From assembly GCA_946482295.1 (NCBI GenBank), contig CAMLRB010000020.1, positions 1 through 24,726 of the forward strand: a DNA stretch of 24,726 nt, written 5' to 3'. This document shows positions 1 through 24,726 of this stretch, in pieces (the stretch's first letter is position 1; every line of letters begins with the position of its first letter). Made by a program: the position numbers and the translations under genes. The notes under the pieces are model-generated. The model did no database searches and had not been told where the DNA came from. It worked only from the letters and a program-made list of their open reading frames with translations. Origin of the DNA: an uncultured Bacteriovorax sp. GTDB lineage: Bacteria; Bdellovibrionota; Bacteriovoracia; Bacteriovoracales; Bacteriovoracaceae.

Positions 1-264
1 TATTTTGCTCGAAAGTGGAGTGATTGTTTTGTGAATGCGGTTGATCCCGGATGGGTTCCGACTCGCATGGGGGGAAGTAGTGCTCCAGATGATCTGCAAA
101 AAGGTGCAGAGACACAGGCCTGGTTAGCTACGAGTCTTGCGCCTTCAGCTCTTGTGAGTGGTCAGTATTTTCATCACCAAAAAATTCACAACTCAAATCC
201 TGAAGCTGATTCCGTTCACGATCAGGAATTACTTGTGAATGACCTTCTTAAGAGGTGCCACTAG
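1..264 (+). CDS. Short-chain dehydrogenase/reductase, C-terminal part (5' end outside window)
   Basis: The frame is open from base 1, so this is the 3' part of a gene that begins upstream. The visible 87 residues include VNAVDPGWVPTRMGG, the segment after the catalytic YxxxK of SDR-family NAD(P)(H) oxidoreductases (VxPGxxxT). The Rossmann N-terminus and the catalytic Tyr/Lys lie outside the window, so the substrate cannot be inferred. The last codons (AGG TGC CAC TAG, residues RCH-stop) lie inside the 54-bp palindrome at 254-307: Cys, His and the stop codon are repeat-derived. A start codon inside the visible segment (GTG at 31) is unlikely because the fold would be cut. Family call confident, function unknown. 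Confidence 0.8.
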   Translation, partial: YFARKWSDCFVNAVDPGWVPTRMGGSSAPDDLQKGAETQAWLATSLAPSALVSGQYFHHQKIHNSNPEADSVHDQELLVNDLLKRCH

Positions 265-307
265 CCCTTTTGTTTCGCAAGTGCGAAACCAAAAGTATAG
301 TGGCACC
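254..307 (+). repeat. 54-bp palindromic repeat, copy 1
   Basis: Imperfect palindrome: 26-bp arms around AG, beginning GGTGCCACTAGCCC and ending AAAAGTATAGTGGCACC. Four mismatches between the arms; inner stem CGCA/TGCG gives a tight hairpin. It is nearly identical to the copy at 6694-6747, differing at position 11 (G here, T there). That G creates the TAG that stops the upstream dehydrogenase. The right border is a perfect 10-bp tandem duplication, CCTTGAATCG twice (306-325), which includes the terminal CC of the palindrome. There is no T-run directly after the hairpin, so it is not a textbook intrinsic terminator. Confidence 0.95.
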
Positions 308-325
308 TTGAATCGCCTTGAATCG
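306..325 (+). repeat. 10-bp tandem duplication at right border of repeat copy 1
   Basis: CCTTGAATCG occurs twice head to tail (306-315 and 316-325). The first unit begins with the last two bases of the palindrome, so the duplication arose across the repeat boundary. Confidence 0.9.
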
Positions 326-378
326 AAACTTTTTTTCTCTCCTGATCTTAATCTAAAAATAAGATTCAACATGTTTTC

Positions 379-398
379 ATGACTCGAATTGCAGTCAT
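379..398. promoter_or_regulatory. Inverted repeat upstream of the CBS gene (possible operator)
   Basis: ATGACT (379-384) and AGTCAT (393-398) form a perfect 6-bp inverted repeat with an 8-bp spacer, 31 bp before the CBS gene start. The spacing resembles a dimeric regulator site, but no second copy was found in the window. The rest of 326-429 shows no clear promoter. Confidence 0.3.
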
Positions 399-429
399 AT
401 GATTAATAAAATGTAACCGGGAGGATACA

Positions 430-849
430 ATGCTAGCGAAAGATTGCATGACAAAAAATGTAGAAATCGGAAGACCAGATATGTCCTTACAAGAAGCTGC
501 TATGAAAATGAAAAAAGGTGATTTTGGCATTCTTCCAATTGGCGTTAAAGATAGGTTAGTGGGAATGATCACAGATCGTGACATTGCCGTTCGTGCCGTC
601 GCCGAAGGAAAAGACCCAAAAAACGTTCAGGTCGGTGAGTGCATGACCAGCAAGGTTCTTTATTGCTACGATGACCAACGAGTTGATGAAGTCATTAAAA
701 ATCTAGGAGAGAATCAAGTGAGAAGATTGCCAGTGTTAAATCGTCAGAAGCGATTAGTTGGCATATTGTCTCTTGGAAATTTAGTTCAAACTGATGTTAG
801 CCCTCAAGAAGTCGATGATGCTTTAATTAAAATATCTAAGAAAATGTAG
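430..849 (+). CDS. Two-CBS-domain protein
   Basis: A 139-residue stand-alone pair of CBS domains (about residues 7-60 and 70-127). Visible signatures are DCMTKN at the first domain start, GMITDRDIAVRAV closing CBS1, ECMTSKV opening CBS2, and RLPVLNRQKRLVGILSLGNL closing it. CBS pairs of this size bind adenosyl nucleotides or act as small stress/dormancy proteins; Hrp1 (Rv2626c) of M. tuberculosis has the same size and architecture. No catalytic domain is attached. Start is fixed by GGGAGG at 419-424, 5 nt before ATG. A strong hairpin follows the stop. It precedes the PRTase-esterase fusion, another gene type seen in dormancy regulons. Ligand unknown. Confidence 0.9.
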   Translation: MLAKDCMTKNVEIGRPDMSLQEAAMKMKKGDFGILPIGVKDRLVGMITDRDIAVRAVAEGKDPKNVQVGECMTSKVLYCYDDQRVDEVIKNLGENQVRRLPVLNRQKRLVGILSLGNLVQTDVSPQEVDDALIKISKKM

Positions 850-858
850 TTCTTATCA

Positions 859-885
859 GGGATGCTGTTACTTTAACAGCATCCC
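859..885 (+). terminator. Hairpin after CBS gene
   Basis: Perfect 12-bp stem GGGATGCTGTTA / TAACAGCATCCC with a 3-nt loop (CTT), 9 nt after the stop codon. No T-tract follows, so it may end transcription with help or protect the 3' end. The remaining gap to 980 shows only weak inverted repeats. Confidence 0.65.
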
Positions 886-980
886 CACGAGAAGCAGAAC
901 TTCTGTTTGCCTGGAATATTTCCCCATTCTTCCGCCCTGTTCATCGGGAAGGGAATGACTTCATATTTTTTAAAGTAAAC

Positions 981-1000
981 TGAGGAGTTGTGAGGAGTTG
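981..1000 (+). repeat. Tandem-duplicated Shine-Dalgarno segment
   Basis: TGAGGAGTTG occurs twice in tandem (981-990, 991-1000), so the leader of the 1003 gene carries two GAGGAG ribosome-binding cores. The proximal one (992-997) is 5 nt from the ATG; the distal one is 10 nt further upstream. Confidence 0.85.
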
Positions 1001-1002
1001 TT

Positions 1003-3597
1003 ATGATTAAGTATTTTAAAAACAGAATTGAAGCAGGGAATATTTTAGCTGATAAACTTTTATCTTTTCAAAACCTAGACCCTGTTGTGCTGGCACTCCC
1101 ACGTGGTGCTGTTCCCATGGCCTATGAGATTGCAAAAAAACTACATGCACCACTGGATGTCGTTTTAGTAAAAAAAATAGGCGCCCCTGGACACGAGGAA
1201 TTCGCTATCGGTGCCATTGCAGAAGATGAAAAACCTATATTGAATCACCAGATCATTTCAATGTACAAATTTGATCCAGTGGAAATAGAAAATGTCGTTT
1301 ATAAGCGTATTTCTGAAATACGCGCTCGTGCAAAAATGTATCGAGAGAAATATCCTGCCGTAGCGTTAAAGGGGAGAAGTGTTATTGTTGTTGATGATGG
1401 ATTAGCCACCGGTGCAACAATGTCGGCGGCCATTACATGGCTGCGCTCTCAAGAGGTAGACAAAATTATTGTCGCAGTTCCAGTCTCATCATGGGAAGCG
1501 GCCGAAGACATTCGCTCCAGAGTAGATGAGTTCATCTCTTTAATAGTTCCCGACAATATGATGGCCGTCGGAAGATGGTATAAAGAATTTTCCCAAGTCA
1601 GTGATGAAGAAGTTCTGGAATGTCTCCAGAAGCAAAAAGGTAACGAATCAGACACTGATAATAAGACTGTTTGGATTGAAGATGGAGCAGCTCGCCTGCA
1701 AGGAGTGTTGAGCATTCCGGCACAGGCAAAAGGACTTGTTCTCTTTGCTCACGGAGGAGGGAGCTCGCATAAAAGTCCCCGCAATTTGTACGTTGCCAAG
1801 GCACTAAATGAAGCAGGATTTGGAACATTATTATTTGATCTCCTGACAGTAAATGAAAGTCTAAATCGTAAAAATGTTTTTGATATTGATTTAATGGCCA
1901 GTCGATTGCTGGTTGCTACTGATTGGGCAAAGAAAGTTAATCCTGACCTGCCAATTGGATATTTTGGAGCGAGCACTGGTGCAGCTGCTGCCCTGAAAGC
2001 AGCTCAAGATCGACTGGATATTTTTTCTATTATAAGTCGCGGTGGGCGCCCTGATCTTGCCCTGGATTCTCTGCCACAAGTTTATGCGCCTACTTTATTA
2101 CTTGTGGGACAGGAAGATCATCCTGTCATTCCACTAAATGAGCTAGCAAAAAAACATTTAAAGAATTCAGAAATGATTTTAATCCCACATGCAGGTCATC
2201 TCTTTGAAGAGGCAGGAACCTTGGAGCAAGTGGTAGAATATGCCGTCAGCTGGCTATCAAGTTGTCTCAAACTGCATCTTGAAAAAAACATTGATACTCA
2301 TTTTGATGTCAAAGAAAACATTGTTAATGAAATAGAACAAAGTGCGCGGGCGTTTTCGATTACTTCGGATCTCGATGACTGGATTCGAGAAATCAGTCAG
2401 CATAAAATTGTCATGTTGGGCGAAGCAACTCATGGCACGAGGGATTTCTATTCTTTAAGACGAGAAATTTCCAAAAAACTATTAAAGGACCATGGTTTTA
2501 ATTTTATAGCAGTTGAAGGGGACTGGCCGGATTGTATCCGATTAAATCAATACATTCATAATCAAAACGATCACAGGAATGAAGACATTGTTTGCGGAGA
2601 ATTTCATCGCTGGCCAACCTGGATGTGGGCAAACGAAGAAGTGGCCTCTCTTATAAAGTGGATGAAAAAAAACCGCAAAGGTTCTTTTTATGGATTGGAT
2701 GTTTACTCACTCTATGACTCGCTTGATGAAATAAAAAAATGCATCGAAAAGGTTGATCCCGTTATCTCCATGAACATTATGAAAACATATAAGTGTTTCG
2801 AAGCTTATCGCTTCGATGAATACGCTTATGCACGCTCGCTTTTGAAAGTGCCTAAAGGTTGTCTGAACGAAGTCGTCACGAATTTGAGATCACTTTTAAG
2901 AGTTCGCTTGGAAGAGACAACATTTAATCTTGATGAATTTTTTGGTGCAAAACAAAATGCGCGAGTTATCACCAATGCGGAAAAATATTATCGGGCCATG
3001 ATACTAGGTGGTGCTGAATCCTGGAATGTCAGAGACCATCACATGTTGGAAACTCTCGAAGAGCTCCTCAGACTGCATGGTCCGGATTCAAAAGCAATTA
3101 TCTGGGCCCATAACACACATATTGGCGATTATCACGCAACAGATATGCTGGAAAATGGCTATATCAATCTAGGGGGACTTGCTCGCGAAAAGTTTGGAAT
3201 GGAGAACGTTTTTCTTTTAGGATTTAGTACTTTTCAAGGGACGGTTACTGCGGGTCATGCTTGGGGAGGAGAAGAAATAAAAATGAATCTTCCAAAAGCT
3301 CAAGTAGGCTCCTATGAAGAATACCTTCATCAGGCATCAGTCAATTTGAAATCAAATAAACTTCTTATCGACCTCAAATCCGTAGGAAAAAATAGTTTCT
3401 TAAACCGAAAATTACCACATCGAGCTGTTGGTGTTGTGTATGATCCCGACCACGAATCAAAAGGTAATTATGTTCCTACCGAACTCGCCAAGCGCTATGA
3501 TGGTTTAATGTTTGTAGATCAGAGCACGGCCTTAGGATCTCTGTCAGCGACATATGTCCGTGAAAAACTGCCAGAAACTTGGCCAGCAGGCCAGTAA
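1003..3597 (+). CDS. Fusion: phosphoribosyltransferase + alpha/beta hydrolase + erythromycin-esterase-like protein
   Basis: An 864-residue cytoplasmic-looking protein with three modules. Residues 1-210: a type I PRTase (COG1926 kind) with PRPP loop VIVVDDGLATGATM at 127-140. Residues about 220-425: an alpha/beta (dienelactone-like) hydrolase with HGGGSS (250-255), nucleophile Ser324 in GASTG, and probable acid Asp372 and His399. Residues about 445-860: an erythromycin-esterase/succinoglycan-synthesis-type domain with LGEATHGTRDF (Glu474, His477), VEGDWPD (Glu505) and WAHNTH (His703, His706). All three sites look intact. Fusions of these families are known, e.g. PRTase-esterase Rv2030c of M. 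tuberculosis, next to hspX. Real substrate unknown; macrolide resistance should not be assumed. Start set by GAGGAG at 992. Ends at a 54-bp repeat. Confidence 0.9.
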   Translation: MIKYFKNRIEAGNILADKLLSFQNLDPVVLALPRGAVPMAYEIAKKLHAPLDVVLVKKIGAPGHEEFAIGAIAEDEKPILNHQIISMYKFDPVEIENVVYKRISEIRARAKMYREKYPAVALKGRSVIVVDDGLATGATMSAAITWLRSQEVDKIIVAVPVSSWEAAEDIRSRVDEFISLIVPDNMMAVGRWYKEFSQVSDEEVLECLQKQKGNESDTDNKTVWIEDGAARLQGVLSIPAQAKGLVLFAHGGGSSHKSPRNLYVAKALNEAGFGTLLFDLLTVNESLNRKNVFDIDLMASRLLVATDWAKKVNPDLPIGYFGASTGAAAALKAAQDRLDIFSIISRGGRPDLALDSLPQVYAPTLLLVGQEDHPVIPLNELAKKHLKNSEMILIPHAGHLFEEAGTLEQVVEYAVSWLSSCLKLHLEKNIDTHFDVKENIVNEIEQSARAFSITSDLDDWIREISQHKIVMLGEATHGTRDFYSLRREISKKLLKDHGFNFIAVEGDWPDCIRLNQYIHNQNDHRNEDIVCGEFHRWPTWMWANEEVASLIKWMKKNRKGSFYGLDVYSLYDSLDEIKKCIEKVDPVISMNIMKTYKCFEAYRFDEYAYARSLLKVPKGCLNEVVTNLRSLLRVRLEETTFNLDEFFGAKQNARVITNAEKYYRAMILGGAESWNVRDHHMLETLEELLRLHGPDSKAIIWAHNTHIGDYHATDMLENGYINLGGLAREKFGMENVFLLGFSTFQGTVTAGHAWGGEEIKMNLPKAQVGSYEEYLHQASVNLKSNKLLIDLKSVGKNSFLNRKLPHRAVGVVYDPDHESKGNYVPTELAKRYDGLMFVDQSTALGSLSATYVREKLPETWPAGQ

Positions 3598-3608
3598 GAG
3601 GTAAGAGG
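3595..3608 (+). repeat. 7-bp tandem duplication at left border of repeat copy 2
   Basis: TAAGAGG at 3595-3601 and 3602-3608. The first unit contains the stop codon of the fusion gene; the second ends with the first GG of the palindrome. Confidence 0.9.
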
Positions 3609-3660
3609 TGCCACTATACTTATGGTTTCGCAAGAGCGAAACCATAAGTATGATGGCACC
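3607..3660 (+). repeat. 54-bp palindromic repeat, copy 2
   Basis: 26-bp arms starting GGTGCCACTATACTTATGG, centre AG. Arms differ at three positions (CT/TC inversion near the outer end, and the innermost base). Same subtype as the 4233 copy (CTTATGG inner arm). On the right the outer end is repeated: GGCACCATT at 3655-3663 recurs at 3668-3676 (period 13). Confidence 0.95.
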
Positions 3661-3765
3661 ATTAGAAGGCACCATTGGCAGTCGATTTTGACTGTTAAGT
3701 GTGAGTAATTATATTGTGACTTGAAATCACTATCTACCGTTTTAAAGTGGATTTATAGTTTATCT

Positions 3766-4230
3766 ATGTTGGATTTCATAACTAATTTTTTTAAGCTACC
3801 TTGCACTTTTGATGATTTGCGGACTTCAGAAAAAAGAGCTTATCTTTTTGTTGCGATAGTATTTGGTCTAACTTCTTTATTTATTCTTGCAGTAGTCGTG
3901 CAGGTGTTTTTTAAAGATAAGGAATTACTTGCCAGACCTCTAGGTCTAATTCTGAGCTTAAATTTTATAACCTTTTTTATCTTTGCAAAACTCTCTAGAG
4001 ACTTATCAGTTAGAACTCATTTATTAAAAGAATATCGCGATCTGCTCGTTGTTAAAAAACGCTTTTATTTTTCGTTTTTATCGCTAGTAGGATTTCCCTA
4101 CATGTTGCTTGCTACTTGGGTCTTGAAAGCGGGTGATTTAGAATCTTTTTGGAAAATGTCTTTCCTCTTTTTATCTAGTTTAACGATAATGATTTTCTTT
4201 GATTATAAAATACTTAGAAAATTTTCTTAA
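3766..4230 (+). CDS. Small multi-pass membrane protein of unknown function
   Basis: About 154 residues and strongly hydrophobic, with four likely membrane spans: a long one near residues 28-52 (from LFVAIVFGLTSLFILAVVV), then around PLGLILSLNFITFFIF, FSFLSLVGFPYMLLATWVL, and FLFLSSLTIMIFF. Charged loops between spans (KEYRDLLVVKKR) resemble a compact inner-membrane protein. No family recognised. Start uncertain: ATG 3766 is used here; an in-frame TTG at 3721 would add 15 residues. Neither has a convincing Shine-Dalgarno. The stop TAA (4228-4230) is followed after two bases by repeat copy 3, and the gene is convergent with the isochorismatase-family gene. Confidence 0.6.
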   Translation: MLDFITNFFKLPCTFDDLRTSEKRAYLFVAIVFGLTSLFILAVVVQVFFKDKELLARPLGLILSLNFITFFIFAKLSRDLSVRTHLLKEYRDLLVVKKRFYFSFLSLVGFPYMLLATWVLKAGDLESFWKMSFLFLSSLTIMIFFDYKILRKFS

Positions 4231-4232
4231 GA

Positions 4233-4286
4233 GGTGCCACTATACTTATGGTTTCGCTAGTGCGAAACCATAAGTATAGTGGCACC
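4233..4286 (+). repeat. 54-bp palindromic repeat, copy 3 (best copy)
   Basis: Almost perfect palindrome: 26-bp arms starting GGTGCCACTATACTTATGG with one mismatch, the innermost base. It lies between convergent genes. On the minus strand, its first 30 nt are read as GGT GCC ACT ATA CTT ATG GTT TCG CAC TAG, giving the last nine residues and the stop codon of the isochorismatase-family gene. No tandem duplication at the borders, unlike copies 1, 2 and 4. The left flank TTCTTAAGAGG is the same as at copy 1. Confidence 0.97.
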
Positions 4287-4781
4287 ATTCAAGTTGGTAA
4301 GTATTTGACGTGGGCCAAGGGCTTCGATTGCTATGTTATGAATTATTTCATTAACTGTTGTACAAGCATCTACAACGATAGAGACTTTGTACTTCTCTGC
4401 ATTCTTGGAAAGAGCAGTGTGGGTCACGCAGTTTTGTGTCATCATTCCACACATAATAATGTGTTCGACACCAAGCTTATCTAGGACAGTTTCAAGATTG
4501 GTTTTGTAAAATGAGTCAGCGTACTGTTTACTTACCACAGGAGCATTCGGAACTGCCTCAAGAATTTTTTGATGTATCCTAGCTCCACTACTTCCAAGGG
4601 TGAATAATGGTGCATCTTCACCAAGAACATGTTGGATAAGAACAACAGGAATATTTTGTTTTTTGGCCAGGTCGATAAGCTCTAACGTACTATTTAATGT
4701 CTTTTCGGGATTCCACAATGGAAACTTTCCATCTGGAAAATATTCGTTTTGGATATCAATAACGACTAATACTTTTCTCAT
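4257..4781 (-). CDS. Isochorismatase-family cysteine hydrolase
   Basis: A 174-residue member of the isochorismatase/nicotinamidase-like fold. The probable triad is Asp9 (VIDIQNEYF), Lys85 (VVSKQYADSF) and Cys118 (CGMMTQNCVTHTA). These enzymes hydrolyse amides or vinyl ethers; the substrate here is unknown. ATG 4781 is chosen because AAGG lies 6 nt upstream; the ATG 27 nt earlier has no ribosome site. The C-terminus is unusual: residues 166-174 (GATILMVSH) and the stop are encoded by the 54-bp palindrome, so the original gene probably ended differently. It is the last gene of a leftward set with two SnoaL-like genes (41-nt gap) under a divergent AraC-type regulator. Confidence 0.85.
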   Translation of the reverse strand: MRKVLVVIDIQNEYFPDGKFPLWNPEKTLNSTLELIDLAKKQNIPVVLIQHVLGEDAPLFTLGSSGARIHQKILEAVPNAPVVSKQYADSFYKTNLETVLDKLGVEHIIMCGMMTQNCVTHTALSKNAEKYKVSIVVDACTTVNEIIHNIAIEALGPRQILTNLNGATILMVSH

Positions 4782-4822
4782 ATTCAACCTTACTGCTTTT
4801 TCATTCATTGGAGTAAATTTGC

Positions 4823-5200
4823 TTAAAACATTGGATTGTTGTTTGCACGCGCATCTGGCATTGGCATCATAGCATCCCAGTGCTCTGCTAACTTGTTATT
4901 TTCTATTCGGTAAATATCGATAAATCGCCATTCTTTTCCGGCCATCTCATATCGTGAGTGAAGGAAAACAGTATCACCTTCGACTGCAATATGTTTGAAA
5001 CTGATTTTTTGTTTTGGTACTCCTTGCGATATAAGCATTTTTAGAAGCACTTTTACACCGTCTGCTCCATCCGCGATTGTTGGATTGTGTTGAATAAAGT
5101 TCTTAGTCATATATTCATCTACAGCCGTAACATCTAAATCTCCAAAAATCTTTTGGTATGCTGTTGAAGCAATTTGTTTGATTTTATCTTCAGTGTTCAT
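4823..5200 (-). CDS. SnoaL-like (NTF2-fold) protein
   Basis: A 125-residue cone-shaped NTF2/SnoaL-like protein. Cues are the N-terminal helix, EYMTKNFIQHNPTIADGADGVKVLL (the 'QHNP' segment common in SnoaL-type polyketide cyclase homologues), and a C-terminal sheet KEWRFIDIYRIENNKLAEHWDAM. Family members are isomerases, cyclases or ligand carriers; the substrate cannot be read here. AGGAA precedes ATG by 5-6 nt. Middle gene of a leftward cluster, 39 nt after the second SnoaL-like gene. The two are only distantly similar to each other, so not a recent duplication. Confidence 0.8.
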   Translation of the reverse strand: MNTEDKIKQIASTAYQKIFGDLDVTAVDEYMTKNFIQHNPTIADGADGVKVLLKMLISQGVPKQKISFKHIAVEGDTVFLHSRYEMAGKEWRFIDIYRIENNKLAEHWDAMMPMPDARANNNPMF

Positions 5201-5239
5201 AGTATTTCCTATTTTCTTAAAGCTTGTTGATGGCTTTTT

Positions 5240-5638
5240 TTAACGACTCCAAAAATTATTCTCGGCTTCTTGATCTTCAGAGAAGAGCCAAACCTCTTTT
5301 ATTTTTCCATCTTGAATTTTCAATAGGTCAATTCCGGCCATTGACATGCTTGCTCCTTTTCGTTGAGCTGAAAACTGAATAATGACTGATACTAAATCTC
5401 CATTTGCCATAATATGTTTCGGCTCAAGCTTCAAAGTACCTTGGGTTATCTCCATCATTTTGCCCAAATGGGGAAACAGTTCTTGTTTTCCTTTATAAGT
5501 TCCAGAGGCCTGGTGATTTCCTGGTTGGTGCCAAATGACATCATCTGCAATGAGTTGTCCGACTTGCTCCATTTCCCCTTTGGCCAGGTGATCGAAATAA
5601 GATTTAATAATTTTTAAATTTTTCTCGTTTGTATTCAT
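5240..5638 (-). CDS. SnoaL-like (NTF2-fold) protein, second copy
   Basis: A 132-residue NTF2-fold protein: IIKSYFDHLAKGEMEQVGQLIADDVIWHQPG (typical helix then WHxPG), a central sheet, and AGIDLLKIQDGKIKEVWLFSEDQ at the end. Belongs to the SnoaL/ketosteroid-isomerase-like superfamily. Strong AAGGAG 6 nt before ATG. First gene of the leftward set, transcribed away from the GlxA-type regulator at 5719, whose promoter region it shares (80 bp between starts). Function inferred only at fold level. Confidence 0.8.
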   Translation of the reverse strand: MNTNEKNLKIIKSYFDHLAKGEMEQVGQLIADDVIWHQPGNHQASGTYKGKQELFPHLGKMMEITQGTLKLEPKHIMANGDLVSVIIQFSAQRKGASMSMAGIDLLKIQDGKIKEVWLFSEDQEAENNFWSR

Positions 5639-5678
5639 AGATGGCTCCTTTTTTTAACTATTTTAATCCAATTTGGGC

Positions 5679-5709
5679 TGGTACAATAGTGGCATAAATG
5701 CCATTTATG
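5679..5709 (+). promoter_or_regulatory. Extended -10 promoter and 17-bp palindrome ahead of the AraC-type regulator
   Basis: TGGTACAAT (5679-5687) is an extended -10 element. Just downstream, CATAAATG-C-CATTTATG (5693-5709) is a perfect palindrome over the expected start of transcription. It also contains a spurious ATG at 5698. Placement fits an operator for the regulator itself or the divergent cluster. Confidence 0.55.
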
Positions 5710-5718
5710 AGGTTGAAT

Positions 5719-6672
5719 ATGACAAAGCGAAAAAGTGTGAATATTGGGGTACTTGTCCATAACAGGTCAGCCTTTGGTGTAACTATTTTAATTAAAGAAA
5801 TTTTTCAAGCCGCAAATTATGTCTTAGGAACTGAAACCTACAAGATAGATTTTATTAGCTATAAGAAACGAATCATTAAAACTGACATTTTCCAAATTCA
5901 ATTACAAAAGAGCAAAGAGAATTATGATTATGTGATAGTTAGTCCAACACAAGGGATGGATGAAAATATGCTCATTGATTGGCATAAAGAGAGCGAACTT
6001 CTTAAATCATTGCACGAGAATAATGTTGTGATCGCATCGGCCTGTTTAGGGGTTCTGCTTCTGGCCAGCACTGGAATACTTGATGGTAAACAAGCAACAA
6101 CTCACTGGGCCTGTGAGAGTTTTGCAAAAAAGAATTTTCCCAACGTTCAATGGAATATGCAGAAAATGCTTTGCGAGACTCCATCCATTATTACAGCTGG
6201 CGGCTACCTTGCGATTGTAGACCTAACACTTAATATCATATCAAGATCAAGTGGAAAAAAGGTTACTCAAGAAATAGGAAAGCTTTTACTTGCCGACAGT
6301 GCGAGAGAAAAACAATCTATTTATGCGGCAGAGTTAATAGTAAGCACTCAAGAAGTAGATCAGTTTAAGTCTTTAGAAAGATGGATTGATTTGAATATTC
6401 ACAAGAATATTTCAATCCAGGAAATGGCAGACCGCTGTGGCATGAGCTTGCGTAGTTTTCAAAGAAGAGTCATCTCATCTTATGGGTACCCTCCTAAGAA
6501 ATTTCTCCAATTGAAGCGGGTTCAGAAAGCACGTTTACTGCTAGGAAATTCAAAATTAAGTATTGAAGATGTTGTATCACAAGTAGGTATGAGTGACGTT
6601 TCATCATTCAGAAAAATCTTTCTGCGTGAATTTGGGATGACGTTGTCTGAATATAGAAGACGAATATTTTAG
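5719..6672 (+). CDS. GlxA-type AraC-family regulator (DJ-1/PfpI-like sensor + AraC HTH)
   Basis: 317 residues. Residues 6-180 form a DJ-1/PfpI (class I glutamine amidotransferase-like) fold with Cys109 at the nucleophile-elbow position (SACLGVLLLASTGILDG) followed by TTHW, typical of the GlxA subfamily. Residues about 215-317 are a double HTH AraC domain (ISIQEMADRCGMSLRSFQRRV; LSIEDVVSQVGMSDVSSFRKIF). Such proteins bind DNA and sense a small ligand, mostly unknown. ATG 5719 is preferred because GAGG lies 6 nt upstream; ATGs at 5698 and 5707 fall within the palindrome and lack a ribosome site. Divergent from the SnoaL/isochorismatase set, the likely target. Followed by repeat copy 4. Confidence 0.9.
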   Translation: MTKRKSVNIGVLVHNRSAFGVTILIKEIFQAANYVLGTETYKIDFISYKKRIIKTDIFQIQLQKSKENYDYVIVSPTQGMDENMLIDWHKESELLKSLHENNVVIASACLGVLLLASTGILDGKQATTHWACESFAKKNFPNVQWNMQKMLCETPSIITAGGYLAIVDLTLNIISRSSGKKVTQEIGKLLLADSAREKQSIYAAELIVSTQEVDQFKSLERWIDLNIHKNISIQEMADRCGMSLRSFQRRVISSYGYPPKKFLQLKRVQKARLLLGNSKLSIEDVVSQVGMSDVSSFRKIFLREFGMTLSEYRRRIF

Positions 6673-6681
6673 CCCCCTCTT

Positions 6682-6695
6682 TTGGAGGTTGGAGG
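6682..6695 (+). repeat. 7-bp tandem duplication at left border of repeat copy 4
   Basis: TTGGAGG at 6682-6688 and 6689-6695; the second unit ends with the first GG of the palindrome. Confidence 0.9.
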
Positions 6696-6747
6696 TGCCA
6701 CTATCCCTTTTGTTTCGCAAGTGCGAAACCAAAAGTATAGTGGCACC
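6694..6747 (+). repeat. 54-bp palindromic repeat, copy 4
   Basis: Arms start GGTGCCACTATCCCTTTTG, centre AG, right arm ends AAAAGTATAGTGGCACC. Differs from copy 1 at a single base. Located between convergent genes (AraC-type regulator and VTT-domain gene). Bordered on both sides by 7-bp tandem duplications that include the terminal dinucleotide of the palindrome. Confidence 0.96.
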
Positions 6748-6759
6748 GTTAGCCGTTAG
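6746..6759 (+). repeat. 7-bp tandem duplication at right border of repeat copy 4
   Basis: CCGTTAG at 6746-6752 and 6753-6759. The first unit starts with the last CC of the palindrome. The second contains the complement of the stop codon (TAA) of the leftward VTT gene, so that stop is present twice. Confidence 0.9.
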
Positions 6760-7325
6760 AGTTTGACTCCCGCATCCGCCAACTCATCTTTCATTCCCCA
6801 GAATTTCTTCAGAAGTCTTGGGGAGTGTGAGCCGAGATAGGCGAGAATGTTGAACTTGATAAAGCGTCCGATGAAAATGGCCACTGTCAGTTCAAGTGGT
6901 GGTATGTGAGCAAGAGCTGCGAGAATAATCACAGGTTGTTGCATGAGTGGGCTGATGGCCACGACAAAGACAACAATCAAGCCGTATTTATCAAAAAACT
7001 GATCTGTTATAATCCACATTTGACTTTGTTCAAGGCCAGGAAAAAAATTCAAGACCCAGGGTAAGCCTTGATGTTCAACGAGATAAAAAAGAGCGAGTGC
7101 TCCGATTGTTGAACCAATAGTGATGTTAAGAGCAAAAAGCGCCCAACGTTTTGGGAGAAGCATGGAGCTCGCAACCAAAATGCCATCGTTGGGTATGATG
7201 ATAATGAGATTATCTAGGGCCGCAAGCAAACCAATGAGTGGAGGATACCAGCTGCGATCAGCATGTTGTTCAAGTTTTTGAACATAGGTTTGAATGGCGG
7301 AATGTAGTTTTTTTCTAATAGACAT
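6756..7325 (-). CDS. VTT/DedA-like (YqaA-type) inner-membrane protein
   Basis: 189 residues with several membrane spans. It carries the VTT (SNARE-associated/DedA-like) hallmarks: an N-terminal hydrophobic stretch LIGLLAALDNLIIIIPNDGILVASSMLLP, a Gly-rich central span TIGSTIGALALFYLVE, and SPLMQQPVIILAALAHIPPLELTVAIFIGRFIKF with the conserved Gly-Arg before the last helix. Bacterial DedA proteins act in membrane homeostasis and lipid flipping; the exact role here is unknown. Start ATG 7325; an upstream TTG would add only three residues. No good ribosome site. Ends in the duplicated border of repeat copy 4 and is convergent with the regulator gene. Confidence 0.8.
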   Translation of the reverse strand: MSIRKKLHSAIQTYVQKLEQHADRSWYPPLIGLLAALDNLIIIIPNDGILVASSMLLPKRWALFALNITIGSTIGALALFYLVEHQGLPWVLNFFPGLEQSQMWIITDQFFDKYGLIVVFVVAISPLMQQPVIILAALAHIPPLELTVAIFIGRFIKFNILAYLGSHSPRLLKKFWGMKDELADAGVKL

Positions 7326-7578
7326 TACAAACAATTCTATAGAAGAGTCGTGGAAACTGAAATCATTACCTGTCTGACATCTAAGATGTTAGTTTCAGCA
7401 TCACCCGTTAATCTTGATGCCTTTCATAAACTTGTGCAGACCATACTGTTTCCAGATCTTTACTCTATGCCTAAACCTGACCATTTTTTTTACACCACTG
7501 AAAGTTTTTCAAAAATTCAGTGCTTGTGCTGGGAATTAGATAATCTCGACTTAATAGTAATTTTCCGGAATGGGCCCA

Positions 7579-10461: not shown

Positions 10462-10489
10462 AGGCCGCTTCTGGTTTAAGAAGCGGCCT
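10462..10489. terminator. Bidirectional terminator-like hairpin
   Basis: AGGCCGCTTC / GAAGCGGCCT, perfect 10-bp stem with an 8-nt loop (TGGTTTAA), between the convergent hydrolase genes. AT-rich flanks on both sides, no long T-run. Confidence 0.75.
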
Positions 10490-13750: not shown

Positions 13751-13754
13751 ACCA

Positions 13755-14111
13755 ATGGCGAAGTACATCGATTTTTGTCTCATCCCTTTACCAAAAAAAG
13801 ATTTAATAAAATATAAAAAGACTACAATAAAAGTCGGGAAGATTCTCCTCAAGCACGGCGCTCTTGCTAGTCGTGACTATGTAGCTGACGATGAAAATGC
13901 AACGAAGAAATCAATTCCGTCGAAAATTAAACTTAAAGCAGGTGAGGTGGTGATTGTTGCCCTTGCAGAGTTCAAATCGAAAGCTCATCGCGATAAGGTC
14001 TTCAAGCTTATGCACAAAGATCCTGCCATGGAGCCGATTATGGCGGAAATGACCGGGGATCATAAGCGAATGCTATTTGGTGGATTTAAGAATCTCGTTG
14101 ATTTGGAATAG
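13755..14111 (+). CDS. DUF1428 (YbaA-like) protein
   Basis: 118 residues. Starts MAKYIDFCLIPLPKKDLIKY, and ends KLMHKDPAMEPIMAEMTGDHKRMLFGGFKNLVDLE, the C-terminal signature of DUF1428 (dimeric ferredoxin-like alpha/beta barrel, E. coli YbaA). It diverges in the middle: the usual 'RVVECW' segment is replaced by ALASRDYVADDENATKKSI. A second, more typical DUF1428 gene is at 22544. Starts at ATG 13755 with AAGGA 8 nt upstream. The frame also runs open upstream into the AHSA1 gene but that is a shadow. Last gene of the tetR operon. Function of the family unknown. Confidence 0.85.
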   Translation: MAKYIDFCLIPLPKKDLIKYKKTTIKVGKILLKHGALASRDYVADDENATKKSIPSKIKLKAGEVVIVALAEFKSKAHRDKVFKLMHKDPAMEPIMAEMTGDHKRMLFGGFKNLVDLE

Positions 14112-14748: not shown

Positions 14749-15314
14749 AAATCAAAACGATGATCACTGTCCTTATCCTGCTATTGATTTCTCCTACTGT
14801 TTTTGCAAAACAGAGTGTTGAACTTCCCCCAATAAATTTTCAAGTCAGCGCTACTGATGCACTCTCGAAGTTTGAGAGGACTCTTTTGTACCCAGAAGGA
14901 TTGCTTAAACGTTTCCGACCATTAGGTGCAAAAATTAGTGAAAAACGAGTTTCTCAAAACGTGATTAGTTTTATCGCGACGAAAACTGTTTTATTCATTT
15001 CAAAGTCGGTTTATGTAAATGGAATAATAGATACATCAGAAAATAATAAAGCTTGTTCGAAAGGTGAGTTGGGATATAGTTTTAAAATGAGCTTTGATTC
15101 TTCCGACTCATTGGTAACAGATAATTTGGAAGGTTTGGAAGCTACTATTTGCCTTCATTCGCAATCAAAAACAAAATTAGAGGGACTCGTAAAATCAAAA
15201 ATCATTATTGGTAATAATTATTCAAAGGTGTTGGGCCCCATTGCCATAGATTTAATCAAAGGACAAGTGTCTCCTTTACTCAATGCTTTAACAGAAGAAA
15301 TAACATCTCTATAG
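14745..15314 (+). CDS. Secreted protein of unknown function, coupled to the Cys-rich gene
   Basis: 189 residues. Sec signal peptide MKIKTMITVLILLLISPTVFAKQ. The mature part alternates beta-rich segments (NVISFIATKTVLFISKSVYVNGIID) and has two cysteines that could pair (ACSKG, TICLH). End helix PIAIDLIKGQVSPLLNALTEEI. Not recognised; the fold may be a periplasmic ligand- or lipid-binding one, as guess only. Starts within the stop of the preceding gene (ATGA overlap), a sign of translational coupling. Its TAG stop (15312-15314) uses the first G of a half copy of the palindromic repeat, and it is convergent with the chemoreceptor gene. Confidence 0.7.
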   Translation: MKIKTMITVLILLLISPTVFAKQSVELPPINFQVSATDALSKFERTLLYPEGLLKRFRPLGAKISEKRVSQNVISFIATKTVLFISKSVYVNGIIDTSENNKACSKGELGYSFKMSFDSSDSLVTDNLEGLEATICLHSQSKTKLEGLVKSKIIIGNNYSKVLGPIAIDLIKGQVSPLLNALTEEITSL

Positions 15315-15330
15315 GTGCCACTATCCTTTT
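15314..15330 (+). repeat. Half copy of the 54-bp palindromic repeat
   Basis: GGTGCCACTATCCTTTT matches the left arm of copies 1 and 4 (one C missing) and then stops. It spans the junction of two convergent genes: its first G completes the TAG of the rightward gene and its last TT is part of the complement of the chemoreceptor stop codon. The right arm is absent. Confidence 0.8.
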
Positions 15331-20631: not shown

Positions 20632-20652
20632 AATTGCAAGTGAGTTGCAATT
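20632..20652. promoter_or_regulatory. Palindromic operator upstream of zinc-type gene (copy 1)
   Basis: Perfect 8-bp inverted repeat AATTGCAA-N5-TTGCAATT. Core TGCAAGTGAGTTGCA (20635-20649). It matches, at 12-14 of 15 core positions, two sites before the COG0523 gene. Overlaps a plausible -35 (TTGCAA, 20645-20650) paired with TACATT (20668-20673). Fits a Fur-family (Zur-like) repressor site. Confidence 0.75.
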
Positions 20653-20702
20653 ATTGAATTTACCATTTACATTATTTCCATAACATTTTTTGGAGAGTCA
20701 AA

Positions 20703-21279: not shown

Positions 21280-22449
21280 TTAAACAGCAAAATAATTGTT
21301 GAAAGGGCTTTCAGTATTCATCCAGACGCTCTTACCAAGTTTTAATTCTTCCTCCGTCAGTAGTGCATTCTGAAGTTTTCGAATGATCTCTGCACGGTCC
21401 ATATCTTGTCCGATAAAAACTAATTCTTGAACACGATCGCCAAATTCTTCATCCCAACCCGCTTCAACTTTTCGAAGTTCCTCTTCTTCTAAATTCCATT
21501 CGGCCCTGTCGAGCGAGGCCAGCCAAAAGCCAGAATTTTCAATGGTGCTGACGAGACCTGCTTGCGACCAGAGACCTACAAACTCTGGATTTGAAGCAAC
21601 CCAAAAGAATCCTTTAGAACGAATAATATCTTCAGAAAGATCGCTAAAAAATTCCATTAATCTTTGAGGATGAAAAGGTTTTTTATCTTTAAACACAAAA
21701 CTACCAATTCCATATTCTTCTGTTTCAGTCGATTCTTCTCCTCGTAATTCTTGCATCCATCCAGGTGAATTCATCGCCACTTCGAAATTAAAAAGATTTG
21801 TGTTGAGAATTTTTTCGAGAGGAATTTGCGACTTATGTGTTTCGATGATGCCTGCTCGTGGATTAATCTTTTGCAAAATGGCCTTAAGCCTTTCCTTATC
21901 TTCTTGATCCTTGATGAGATCGACTTTGTTCAATAAAATGACATCTGCAAATTCAATTTGAGAAATGAGAAGATCTGTTATCGTTCTTTCATCTTCTACT
22001 CCCAATTCAAGATTTCTCTCTTTGAGAGACTGTGATTCAACATAATCTTTAAAAAAGTTAAAACCATCAACAACAGTCACCATCGTATCAAGGCGTGCAT
22101 GCTTGGAAAGCGAGTCGCCACTTTCATCTTCAAATGTAAAAGTTTCTGCAACTGGTATTGGTTCTGAAATTCCCGTCGATTCAATGACCAAGTAGTCATA
22201 CTTTTTTTCTTGAGCAATTTTTTTAATAGCAACCAAAAGATCCTCACGAAGTGTACAACATATACATCCGTTACTCATTTCGACGATTTTTTCTTCCGTT
22301 CTTACAAGGCCAGCATCGATATTGACTTCGCTCATATCATTGACGATAACAGCGATTTTCAATCCATGTTGGGCATTTAAAATGTGGTTGAGGAGGGTGG
22401 TTTTTCCTGCCCCTAAAAATCCGGATAAGACGGTAACTGGTAATTGCAT
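21280..22449 (-). CDS. COG0523 (CobW/ZigA-type) GTPase metallochaperone
   Basis: 389 residues. Walker A GFLGAGKT (10-17), CxCC zinc motif GCICC (Cys62, Cys64, Cys65), G3 region DYLVIESTGISEP, G4 NKVD, and a CobW C-terminal domain after about residue 260 (IRSKGFFWVASNPEFVGLWSQAG). Members of this branch move Zn2+ to client proteins in zinc shortage. The length and the SKGFFW segment fit the ZigA/YciC group. AAAGGAAG precedes ATG. Two tandem operators sit at the promoter, shared with the ZrgA-like gene, so probably induced when zinc is low. Which proteins it serves is unknown. Confidence 0.92.
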   Translation of the reverse strand: MQLPVTVLSGFLGAGKTTLLNHILNAQHGLKIAVIVNDMSEVNIDAGLVRTEEKIVEMSNGCICCTLREDLLVAIKKIAQEKKYDYLVIESTGISEPIPVAETFTFEDESGDSLSKHARLDTMVTVVDGFNFFKDYVESQSLKERNLELGVEDERTITDLLISQIEFADVILLNKVDLIKDQEDKERLKAILQKINPRAGIIETHKSQIPLEKILNTNLFNFEVAMNSPGWMQELRGEESTETEEYGIGSFVFKDKKPFHPQRLMEFFSDLSEDIIRSKGFFWVASNPEFVGLWSQAGLVSTIENSGFWLASLDRAEWNLEEEELRKVEAGWDEEFGDRVQELVFIGQDMDRAEIIRKLQNALLTEEELKLGKSVWMNTESPFNNYFAV

Positions 22450-22467: not shown

Positions 22468-22488
22468 AAATGCAAGTGATTTGCAATT
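22468..22488. promoter_or_regulatory. Palindromic operator at COG0523 promoter (proximal)
   Basis: Core TGCAAGTGATTTGCA (22471-22485), flanked by A/T. Covers the expected transcription start, 19 bp before the ATG. Near-identical to the sites at 22492 and 20632. Confidence 0.8.
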
Positions 22489-22516
22489 AATAAATGCAAA
22501 TCATTCGCATTGTCAA
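22487..22516 (-). promoter_or_regulatory. Promoter of COG0523 gene
   Basis: On the minus strand: TTGACA (22516-22511), 18-bp spacer, TATTAA (22492-22487). The distal operator fills the spacer; the proximal operator starts at the -10 and covers the start site. Confidence 0.65.
22492..22512. promoter_or_regulatory. Palindromic operator at COG0523 promoter (distal)
   Basis: Core TGCAAATCATTCGCA (22495-22509). It sits 24 bp (centre to centre) from the proximal site, between -35 and -10. Confidence 0.75.
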
Positions 22517-22543: not shown

Positions 22544-22894
22544 TTAGAGATCCACAATCGTTTCAAATCCACCAAAGATCATGCGTGACCCATCAAACGG
22601 CATTTTGCTAAATTGTTCTTTCATCTCGGGGTCTTCTTCCATTTTTTTCATCGATTGATCGCGAACTTCTTTGGAAGGATATTCAACCCAACTAAAAAGA
22701 ACATCTTCATTTTCGGTGGCCTTCACGGCACCATAGAAGTCAGTTTTCTTTCCATGCGGAACATCACTTTGCCAGCATTCAACAACACGAGTGGCCCCAA
22801 ATTGTTTAAATTTTTTCGCGGCCACTTTTGCTTGATCAACATAGAGCTGTTTATTTTCTTTAGGAACAGCGACGACGAATCCATCCACGTACAT
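22544..22894 (-). CDS. DUF1428 (YbaA-like) protein
   Basis: 116 residues: MYVDGFVVAVPKENKQLY, QFGATRVVECWQSDVPHGKKTDF, DVLFSWVEYPSKEVRD and MPFDGSRMIFGGFETIVDL match the DUF1428/YbaA family end to end (memory of E. coli YbaA). A dimeric ferredoxin-like barrel is expected; function unknown. ATG 22894 is chosen because GGAGG lies 5 nt upstream; the ATG four codons earlier is part of that ribosome-site segment. A more divergent relative is in the tetR operon at 13755. A possible promoter (TTGACC-17-ATTAAT, minus strand 23016-22988) carries a TetR-type site, which may link both DUF1428 genes to one regulator. Confidence 0.92.
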   Translation of the reverse strand: MYVDGFVVAVPKENKQLYVDQAKVAAKKFKQFGATRVVECWQSDVPHGKKTDFYGAVKATENEDVLFSWVEYPSKEVRDQSMKKMEEDPEMKEQFSKMPFDGSRMIFGGFETIVDL

Positions 22895-22942
22895 ATGTAC
22901 CTCCATTTTTAAGGATCGTTCCTTAACATTTCTTTCATAATA

Positions 22943-22957
22943 GGTGCCACTTCTTTT
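22943..22957 (+). repeat. Possible fragment of the palindromic repeat
   Basis: AGGTGCCACT followed by TCTTTTAG resembles the left arm with a small deletion. Only the first 9-10 bases match well, so this may be chance. Confidence 0.4.
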
Positions 22958-23836: not shown

Positions 23837-24726
23837 ATGAAGCAAAAAGTTTTAAATAGAGCGATCAGTGCTGTTGTACAAATTCATGTTGAAGGATTAT
23901 TAGAAGGTGATGAGATTGAGATTCTTGATCCGCGAGAAATAAGAAAAGGACATTGGATTGGCTCTGGTGTTCTAATCAGAATTAATGAAGAAGAAGGTTA
24001 TATTCTAACTAATGCTCATGTTGTAAAAAACGGCCTCACATACAGAATTAGAACCATGCTCACGAGTGAGGAAAGTTTCCAGGTGAAATTAATTGGGATG
24101 ATTGAAACGCTAGAGCCAGATATCGGTCTTCTCAAAATAATTGATTCCGAGCTTATTCGCATGAAAGAAATCATTCCTGAAATTCCATATCTTGAAATGG
24201 AAAGGGAAGAAATAATCGATCGCGATCTGAGTATAAAGGCCATTGGTTATCCCTTTGGTATGGAAGAACCTAATGTATCGAGTGGGAAAGTGACCAATTT
24301 CATCTTAGGATCAGATACAGAGTGTGAACGAATTGTTACTGATGCTCCAATTAATCCGGGAAACTCTGGTGGACCTGCTGTTTCAGAAAATGGAAAAATT
24401 ATTGGAATAAATACATCTATCATTTTTGGAGCGAATGACATTGGATTCATAACACCAATCAATTTTGTAAAGATTGTCGTGCAAAATTTAACTGAAGGGA
24501 AAAAAACAGATCTAACTGATCTTGGAGGACGTTTTCAAAAAAATTCAAAAGAATGTGCTTCTTACTTAAAGGCACCAACTACAGATGGAGTAATAGTGAC
24601 AACACTATTTACGAATGGTCTGATGGAAAAAGCAGGACTCAAATCGCGTGACATCCTCTTCAAAATTAATGAATTTTTATTTGACGCTCATGGAATTGTT
24701 AAGACAAAAAACATTTTGCGGCATCG
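23837..24726 (+). CDS. HtrA/DegP-like serine protease, 3' end outside window
   Basis: About 296 residues are visible and the frame stays open to the end. Trypsin-like domain with His61 (LTNAHVVK), Asp95 (PDIGLLKI) and Ser177 (NPGNSGGPAV), followed by the start of a PDZ domain (GVIVTTLFTNGLMEKAGLKSRDILFKINEFLFD). All three catalytic residues are present. Unlike usual DegP/HtrA, no Sec signal peptide or anchor is visible: it begins MKQKVLNRAISAVVQIHVEG. It may be cytoplasmic, or a longer start is missing; no in-frame start is seen upstream before the terminator. AGGGA lies 6 nt before ATG. Next to Hsp20. Confidence 0.88.
   Translation, partial: MKQKVLNRAISAVVQIHVEGLLEGDEIEILDPREIRKGHWIGSGVLIRINEEEGYILTNAHVVKNGLTYRIRTMLTSEESFQVKLIGMIETLEPDIGLLKIIDSELIRMKEIIPEIPYLEMEREEIIDRDLSIKAIGYPFGMEEPNVSSGKVTNFILGSDTECERIVTDAPINPGNSGGPAVSENGKIIGINTSIIFGANDIGFITPINFVKIVVQNLTEGKKTDLTDLGGRFQKNSKECASYLKAPTTDGVIVTTLFTNGLMEKAGLKSRDILFKINEFLFDAHGIVKTKNILRH

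Follow-up and report, generated by a model that had tools for sequence, protein, structure and literature searches.

A 54-bp palindromic repeat at gene 3' ends in an uncultured Bacteriovorax sp.

Sequence, fold, and location of the repeat

The stretch of DNA analyzed here (24,726 nt; hereafter, the window) is contig CAMLRB010000020.1 of the uncultured Bacteriovorax sp. assembly GCA_946482295.1. It contains four full copies of a 54-bp palindrome, which we designate by their first positions (254, 3607, 4233, and 6694), all of them at gene ends, including those of an SDR gene and of an isochorismatase-family gene. The original prediction, made from the sequence of the window, is confirmed in part. 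The repeat itself is real, its four full copies lie at the predicted coordinates and, as predicted, an A precedes the first GG in all of them. Compared pairwise in the same orientation, the copies are identical at 45 to 53 of 54 positions, with an invariant AG at columns 27-28, and they fall into the two predicted subtypes, type A (254 and 6694) and type B (3607 and 4233). The arms, previously given as 26 bp, are in fact a stem of 25 bp closed by a 4-nt loop. This stem is perfect in copy 4233 only; in copy 3607 it deviates at two adjacent pairs, one of which is G-U. The type-A copies have in common an asymmetric left arm (CCCTTTTG vs ACTTTTGG in the right arm read backwards). Because both copies share it, this asymmetry is probably inherited, and it is unlikely that type A is a perfect palindrome that decayed after copying.

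As assessed by RNA folding of the four copies on both strands, predicted energies range from -33.5 to -47.6 kcal/mol (z of -7.8 to -14.3), and in each of these eight tests none of 200 shuffles folded as well. In view of this folding and of the near-identity of the copies, a chance origin was rejected. Covariation is uninformative with four copies (1 of 25 pairs changed on both sides, with 411 of 500 shuffles as high), and the window has no Rfam match at gathering score. The left flanks of copies 254, 3607, 4233, and 6694 end with AAGA, AAGA, AAGA, and TGGA, and their right flanks begin with TTGA, ATTA, ATTC, and GTTA, respectively. Nine bases (TTCTTAAGA) are common to the left flanks of 254 and 4233, five of which are also found at 3607; a target preference and an extension of the element are both candidate explanations.

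Three features go beyond the original prediction. One is a partial copy, with GGTGCCACTATCC present a single time outside the full copies (0.0002 occurrences expected). The others are a weak match (22942-22951) and the tandem duplications described below, which affect five of the eight repeat ends.

Every full copy includes a stop codon or has one no more than 21 nt away (Table 1), as expected from the predicted location at gene ends. Copies 254 and 4233 do more than follow a gene: they include its stop codon. The 26 listed intergenic gaps comprise 16 between genes in the same direction, 5 convergent, and 5 divergent. Of the full copies, two are in same-direction and two in convergent gaps; another convergent gap has the partial copy. 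By position, the full copies agree with the claim that no copy is in a promoter. This claim is weakened by the match at 22942, which is in a divergent gap, by the promoter-like matches inside the repeats (a total of 19 vs 19.0 in shuffles, hence no excess), and by the composition of the window, where divergent gaps make up 952 of 2351 intergenic bases and the location of all four copies elsewhere has a P of only about 0.13. Closeness to stop codons, as judged from the distances in Table 1, is the stronger point.

All copies were also predicted to point in the same direction regardless of gene strand. The direction is clear for 254 and 6694, which match at 53/54 positions forward and 45/54 reversed. 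It is not for 3607 and 4233, which match at 50/54 either way, so that their polarity is read from the loop and the left flank TAAGA. Independence of gene strand was overstated. All four copies have a + strand gene on their left, and the orientation could thus follow that gene as well as replication; four copies oriented alike have a P of 1/8 only.

Protein tails and repeat edges

Two proteins end within the repeat. The isochorismatase-family protein terminates with TNLNGATILMVSH followed by the stop, of which GATILMVSH and the stop are encoded by copy 4233. The 11 relatives aligned with it (the alignment consisting of 12 of the 120 matches listed, one being the query) end otherwise. The first named relative among the matches listed is from Bdellovibrio sp. 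HCB-162 (76% identity). The SDR protein (P0121) terminates with LLKRCH, where AGG TGC CAC TAG reads into copy 254. Its alignment consisted of 16 of 120 matches listed, one being the query, and the named relatives among the matches listed include those from a Bacteriovoracaceae metagenome-assembled genome (MAG), Halobacteriovorax marinus, and Peredibacter starrii. The relatives of these two proteins suggest a source within Bdellovibrionota. P0122, which is 90% identical to the SDR protein, ends with LLVKYLA and has no repeat tail, and P0123, which is 84% identical and encoded on another contig, ends with LVNNLRCH. This RCH ending, which is three residues long, suggests a repeat copy at the same gene end elsewhere, two codons earlier. 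Since P0122 is the closer relative and has no tail, the site would have been hit twice or the repeat lost in one lineage.

When the 22 C-terminal residues of 240 listed proteins were scanned for repeat-like motifs, 30 rows matched. Those of interest are P0001 (GATI), and P0121 and P0123 (RCH); the remaining 27 were discarded as ordinary VPS/VPLS endings of the isochorismatase family. A protein search using translations of the repeat gave 339 candidates, none at E up to 10, with nine-residue tails being hardly scorable.

Copies 254 and 4233 each have exactly one private base (columns 11 and 26, respectively), and each of these bases creates the stop. Were they replaced by the bases found in the other copies, the SDR frame would continue as CHYPFCFASAKPKV, and the isochorismatase-family frame as GATILMVSHLRNHKYSGTS, before a stop. 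Substitutions creating an earlier stop represent 6 of the 162 possible in each frame, and both together have a P near 0.0014, for a pattern that was spotted after the fact and with ancestral bases deduced from four copies. We read these private bases as possible traces of selection for short tails. Should P0123 have inherited the same stop, the change in the SDR gene would be old.

The edges of the repeat are also unusual. At five of the eight ends, a tandem duplication of 7-13 bp takes in flank together with the outermost 2-6 nt of the adjoining repeat. Three of the five are listed by Tandem Repeats Finder (TRF), at its lowest score. No edge duplication was found at the left end of 254 or at either end of 4233. 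The window-wide total of such duplications is unremarkable (18; 30 Markov shuffles gave 10.5 on average and at most 23). It is their placement at repeat ends that stands out: a random point touches a duplication with at least seven matching bases in 3.6% of cases (20,000 points), which gives a P of about 3e-6 for five of eight ends, at a threshold set after the data were seen. In the four perfect edge duplications, 0-2 nt are shared at the joint. Classical target-site duplication was rejected, because both units are on one side of the repeat. Two mechanisms could be invoked: a polymerase may have entered the hairpin, aborted, and started again, or the hairpin may have undergone a staggered break at its base that was then filled in. 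A bolder version, which we put forward very tentatively and think unlikely, is that the duplications record movement. A polymerase would enter the hairpin by 2-6 nt, abort, restart 7-13 nt back in the flank and re-enter, and the repeat would be spread or re-copied by such stuttering template switching during replication or repair, without a transposase.

Table 1. Repeat copies, edge duplications, and genes ending within the repeat. Stop-to-repeat distances are negative where the stop codon is inside the copy.
Feature	Positions	Strand	Remarks
Full copy, type A	254-307	+	Includes stop codon of SDR gene (262-264); distance -11 nt
Full copy, type B	3607-3660	+	Stop of gene 1003-3597 ends 9 nt before
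Full copy, type B, perfect 25-bp stem	4233-4286	+	2 nt past stop of gene 3769-4230 (+); includes stop (4257-4259) of gene 4257-4808 (-), distance -30 nt
Full copy, type A	6694-6747	+	Convergent genes on either side, stops 21 and 8 nt away
Partial copy, left end of type A, 17 nt	15314-15330	+	Overlapped by two convergent stop codons (1 and 2 nt)
AGGTGCCACT, 10-nt match, doubtful fragment or chance	22942-22951	+	Divergent gap
Tandem duplication, period 10	306-325	+	Right end of 254; listed by TRF
Tandem duplication, period 7	3594-3609	+	Left end of 3607; listed by TRF
Imperfect tandem duplication, period 13, 9 matching bases	3655-3676	+	Right end of 3607; absent from TRF list
Tandem duplication, period 7	6682-6696	+	Left end of 6694; listed by TRF
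Tandem duplication, period 7	6746-6759	+	Right end of 6694; absent from TRF list
SDR gene, 3' part	1-264	+	P0121; last codons and stop inside 254
Isochorismatase-family gene	4257-4808	-	Last nine codons and stop inside 4233

Other features of the window were noted. The gene upstream of copy 3607 (1003-3597) is a single open reading frame (ORF) of 864 residues with phosphoribosyltransferase, alpha/beta hydrolase, and erythromycin-esterase-family domains. Directly before its start codon, over the likely ribosome-binding site, there is a perfect tandem duplication of TGAGGAGTTG (two units, 981-1001). There are two DUF1428 paralogues (13752-14111 and 22544-22906). Two similar AT-rich palindromes, at 20632-20659 (AATTGCAAGTGAGTTGCAATT) and 22469-22511 (AATGCAAGTGATTTGCAATT...), stand before two genes, a ZrgA-family one for zinc uptake (20703) and one for a CobW-type GTPase (21280-22449); we take them to be likely sites for a zinc regulator (Zur).

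Searches for other copies and comparison with known repeats

We scanned a collection of one genome per species (84,980 species) with the pattern GGTGCCACTA-N24..44-TAGTGGCACC, which demands exact 10-bp ends and would let diverged relatives escape, as well as copies with a changed end such as 3607 itself. Five stretches were found (three in two Corynebacterium species, one in Hymenobacter, and one in a Cyclobacteriaceae MAG), all of which were rejected as relatives since their middles are unlike our repeat. The palindrome-ended Corynebacterium stretches (352-398 in L001, 96-143 in L002, and 7063-7109 in L005) have similar outer flanks (AAGG or AAAG / CCTT or CCTA) and differing middles, and might form a small family by themselves. 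Two viral contig scans, and BLAST of plasmids and of phages, gave no copy. For the P-type ATPase encoded in the window, no viral relatives were found, and its plasmid relatives, all below 60% identical, were not used. The listings of open-licence literature searched showed no description of the repeat, nor of Term-seq in Bdellovibrio.

Among known repeats, repetitive extragenic palindromic (REP) elements are the closest in kind. In PMC3733652, GTAG/CGTC REPs are described as palindromes found mainly between convergent or same-direction genes, near 3' ends, often providing TAG stops, with stems mostly of 6-9 bp and at most 12-13 bp; CGTC REPs apparently have no dedicated transposase. According to PMC2817692, REPs are usually present in more than 100 copies per genome. 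Our repeat resembles these REPs in being a short, RNA-foldable palindrome that is located at gene 3' ends (4/4 full copies), between convergent or same-direction genes, and supplies the stop in two genes. It differs from them by its 25-bp stem, by the absence of a GTAG/CGTC tag at any of the four copies (by inspection), and by the tandem duplications at its ends. Because the tag is absent and the stem longer, we call it REP-like rather than a REP. Rickettsia palindromic elements, which are named in PMC3733652, offer another comparison. These palindromes also enter reading frames, but they lie within the frame, whereas our repeat ends it, and their sequence and tag are different. In summary, the repeat is ordinary in kind, and unusual in its stem length, its absent tag and, above all, its duplicated edges.

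Dispersal, possible function, and alternatives

Near-identity at four unrelated loci, together with entry into two coding sequences, supports the original view that this is a dispersed, REP/MITE-like repeat (where MITE stands for miniature inverted-repeat transposable element) and more than a plain terminator. The family is real and probably mobile and REP-like; we infer its mobility and function. The explanation that we favor, and consider fairly likely, is that of a small dispersed palindrome working like a REP element. It would spread as a non-coding passenger, and insertions would persist mainly at gene 3' ends, where they would cost only a few terminal codons. Base changes shortening the repeat-encoded tail would then be favored. 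In the transcript, the hairpin could cap the 3' end against 3'-to-5' exonucleases and, because it is palindromic, the cap would serve both genes of a convergent pair, which we infer to be its likeliest use.

Several points weigh against this explanation. We know of just four full copies, and the other collections searched (genomes, viral contigs, plasmids, and phages) yielded none that is convincing. No mobilizing enzyme, and no transposase or integrase family, was matched by Pfam among 27 window proteins, a scan that left out the truncated last ORF (23837-24724) and short unannotated ORFs. Neither an empty site nor a transcript end was seen. A hairpin scan omitted copy 254 at its threshold. 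Absence of full copies from divergent gaps is a weak bias, and one of these gaps contains the doubtful match at 22942. Finally, the tails of P0121 and P0123 may not reflect simple common descent, given the tail-less P0122.

The best of the alternatives, though a doubtful one, is a bidirectional terminator, serving chiefly for termination, that needs no U-tract in this lineage and owes its several copies to recombination. Like intrinsic (Rho-independent) terminators, the repeat is a strong hairpin at gene 3' ends, and two copies are in convergent pairs. Furthermore, the window has other strong gene-end hairpins without a T-run, which are single copy and unrelated in sequence to the repeat (859-885 and 10462-10489). 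Unlike intrinsic terminators, the repeat has the same sequence at unrelated loci and no T-run at any copy, as originally predicted (at the six gene ends examined, the 8 nt that follow contain 1-3 T), and none of the 11 terminator-like matches in 1-7500 is at a repeat. T-run hairpins after the Hsp20 and GTPase genes (by inspection) indicate that the host seems to have ordinary terminators. A terminator role leaves both copying and entry into coding sequences unexplained.

The original prediction suggested movement by a Y1 tyrosine transposase (REP-associated tyrosine transposase, RAYT). We view this reading, with the enzyme supplied from another part of the genome, as unlikely. The single-stranded hairpin, the position at gene 3' ends, and the stops supplied by the repeat are as in REPs (PMC3733652). 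On the other hand, the tag is missing, the stem exceeds the 6-13 bp given for REPs in that paper, and no such gene is among the 27 window proteins. In addition, IS200/IS605-type insertions produce no larger target-site duplications according to PMC2817692, and duplications at the ends would thus be unexpected.

Quite improbable is a minimal MITE, in which two terminal inverted repeats of a DDE insertion sequence were joined by internal deletion. Bacterial MITEs, as described in PMC3733652, are likewise non-coding, gene-adjacent, and RNA-foldable, and our 25-bp inverted arms are within the 15-30 bp of their terminal repeats. However, MITEs measure 70-300 bp in that paper, whereas our repeat has 54 bp with only a 4-nt loop between its arms. 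No full copy has a direct repeat flanking both sides, and no related insertion sequence was seen. It is on size and target-site duplication that MITE membership fails. Integron-like recombination sites bounding gene modules would fit the location of the palindromes at gene 3' ends, their seemingly shared direction, and the differing gene groups between them, but we give them hardly any credence, as the RYYYAAC/GTTRRRY boxes of attC sites are absent from the ends of the four copies by inspection, no integrase family matched among the 27 proteins, and spacing is irregular, with the partial copy isolated 8.6 kb away. Uptake sequences and protelomerase sites were also considered, and dropped for want of support.

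This REP-like palindrome may bear on how bacterial palindromes multiply without a dedicated transposase. With its same-side junction duplications of 7-13 bp and apparent stop gains that trim the tails, it may allow both insertion and selection to be read from sister genomes. Annotators are also warned that, in this lineage, some proteins take their final residues from a repeat.

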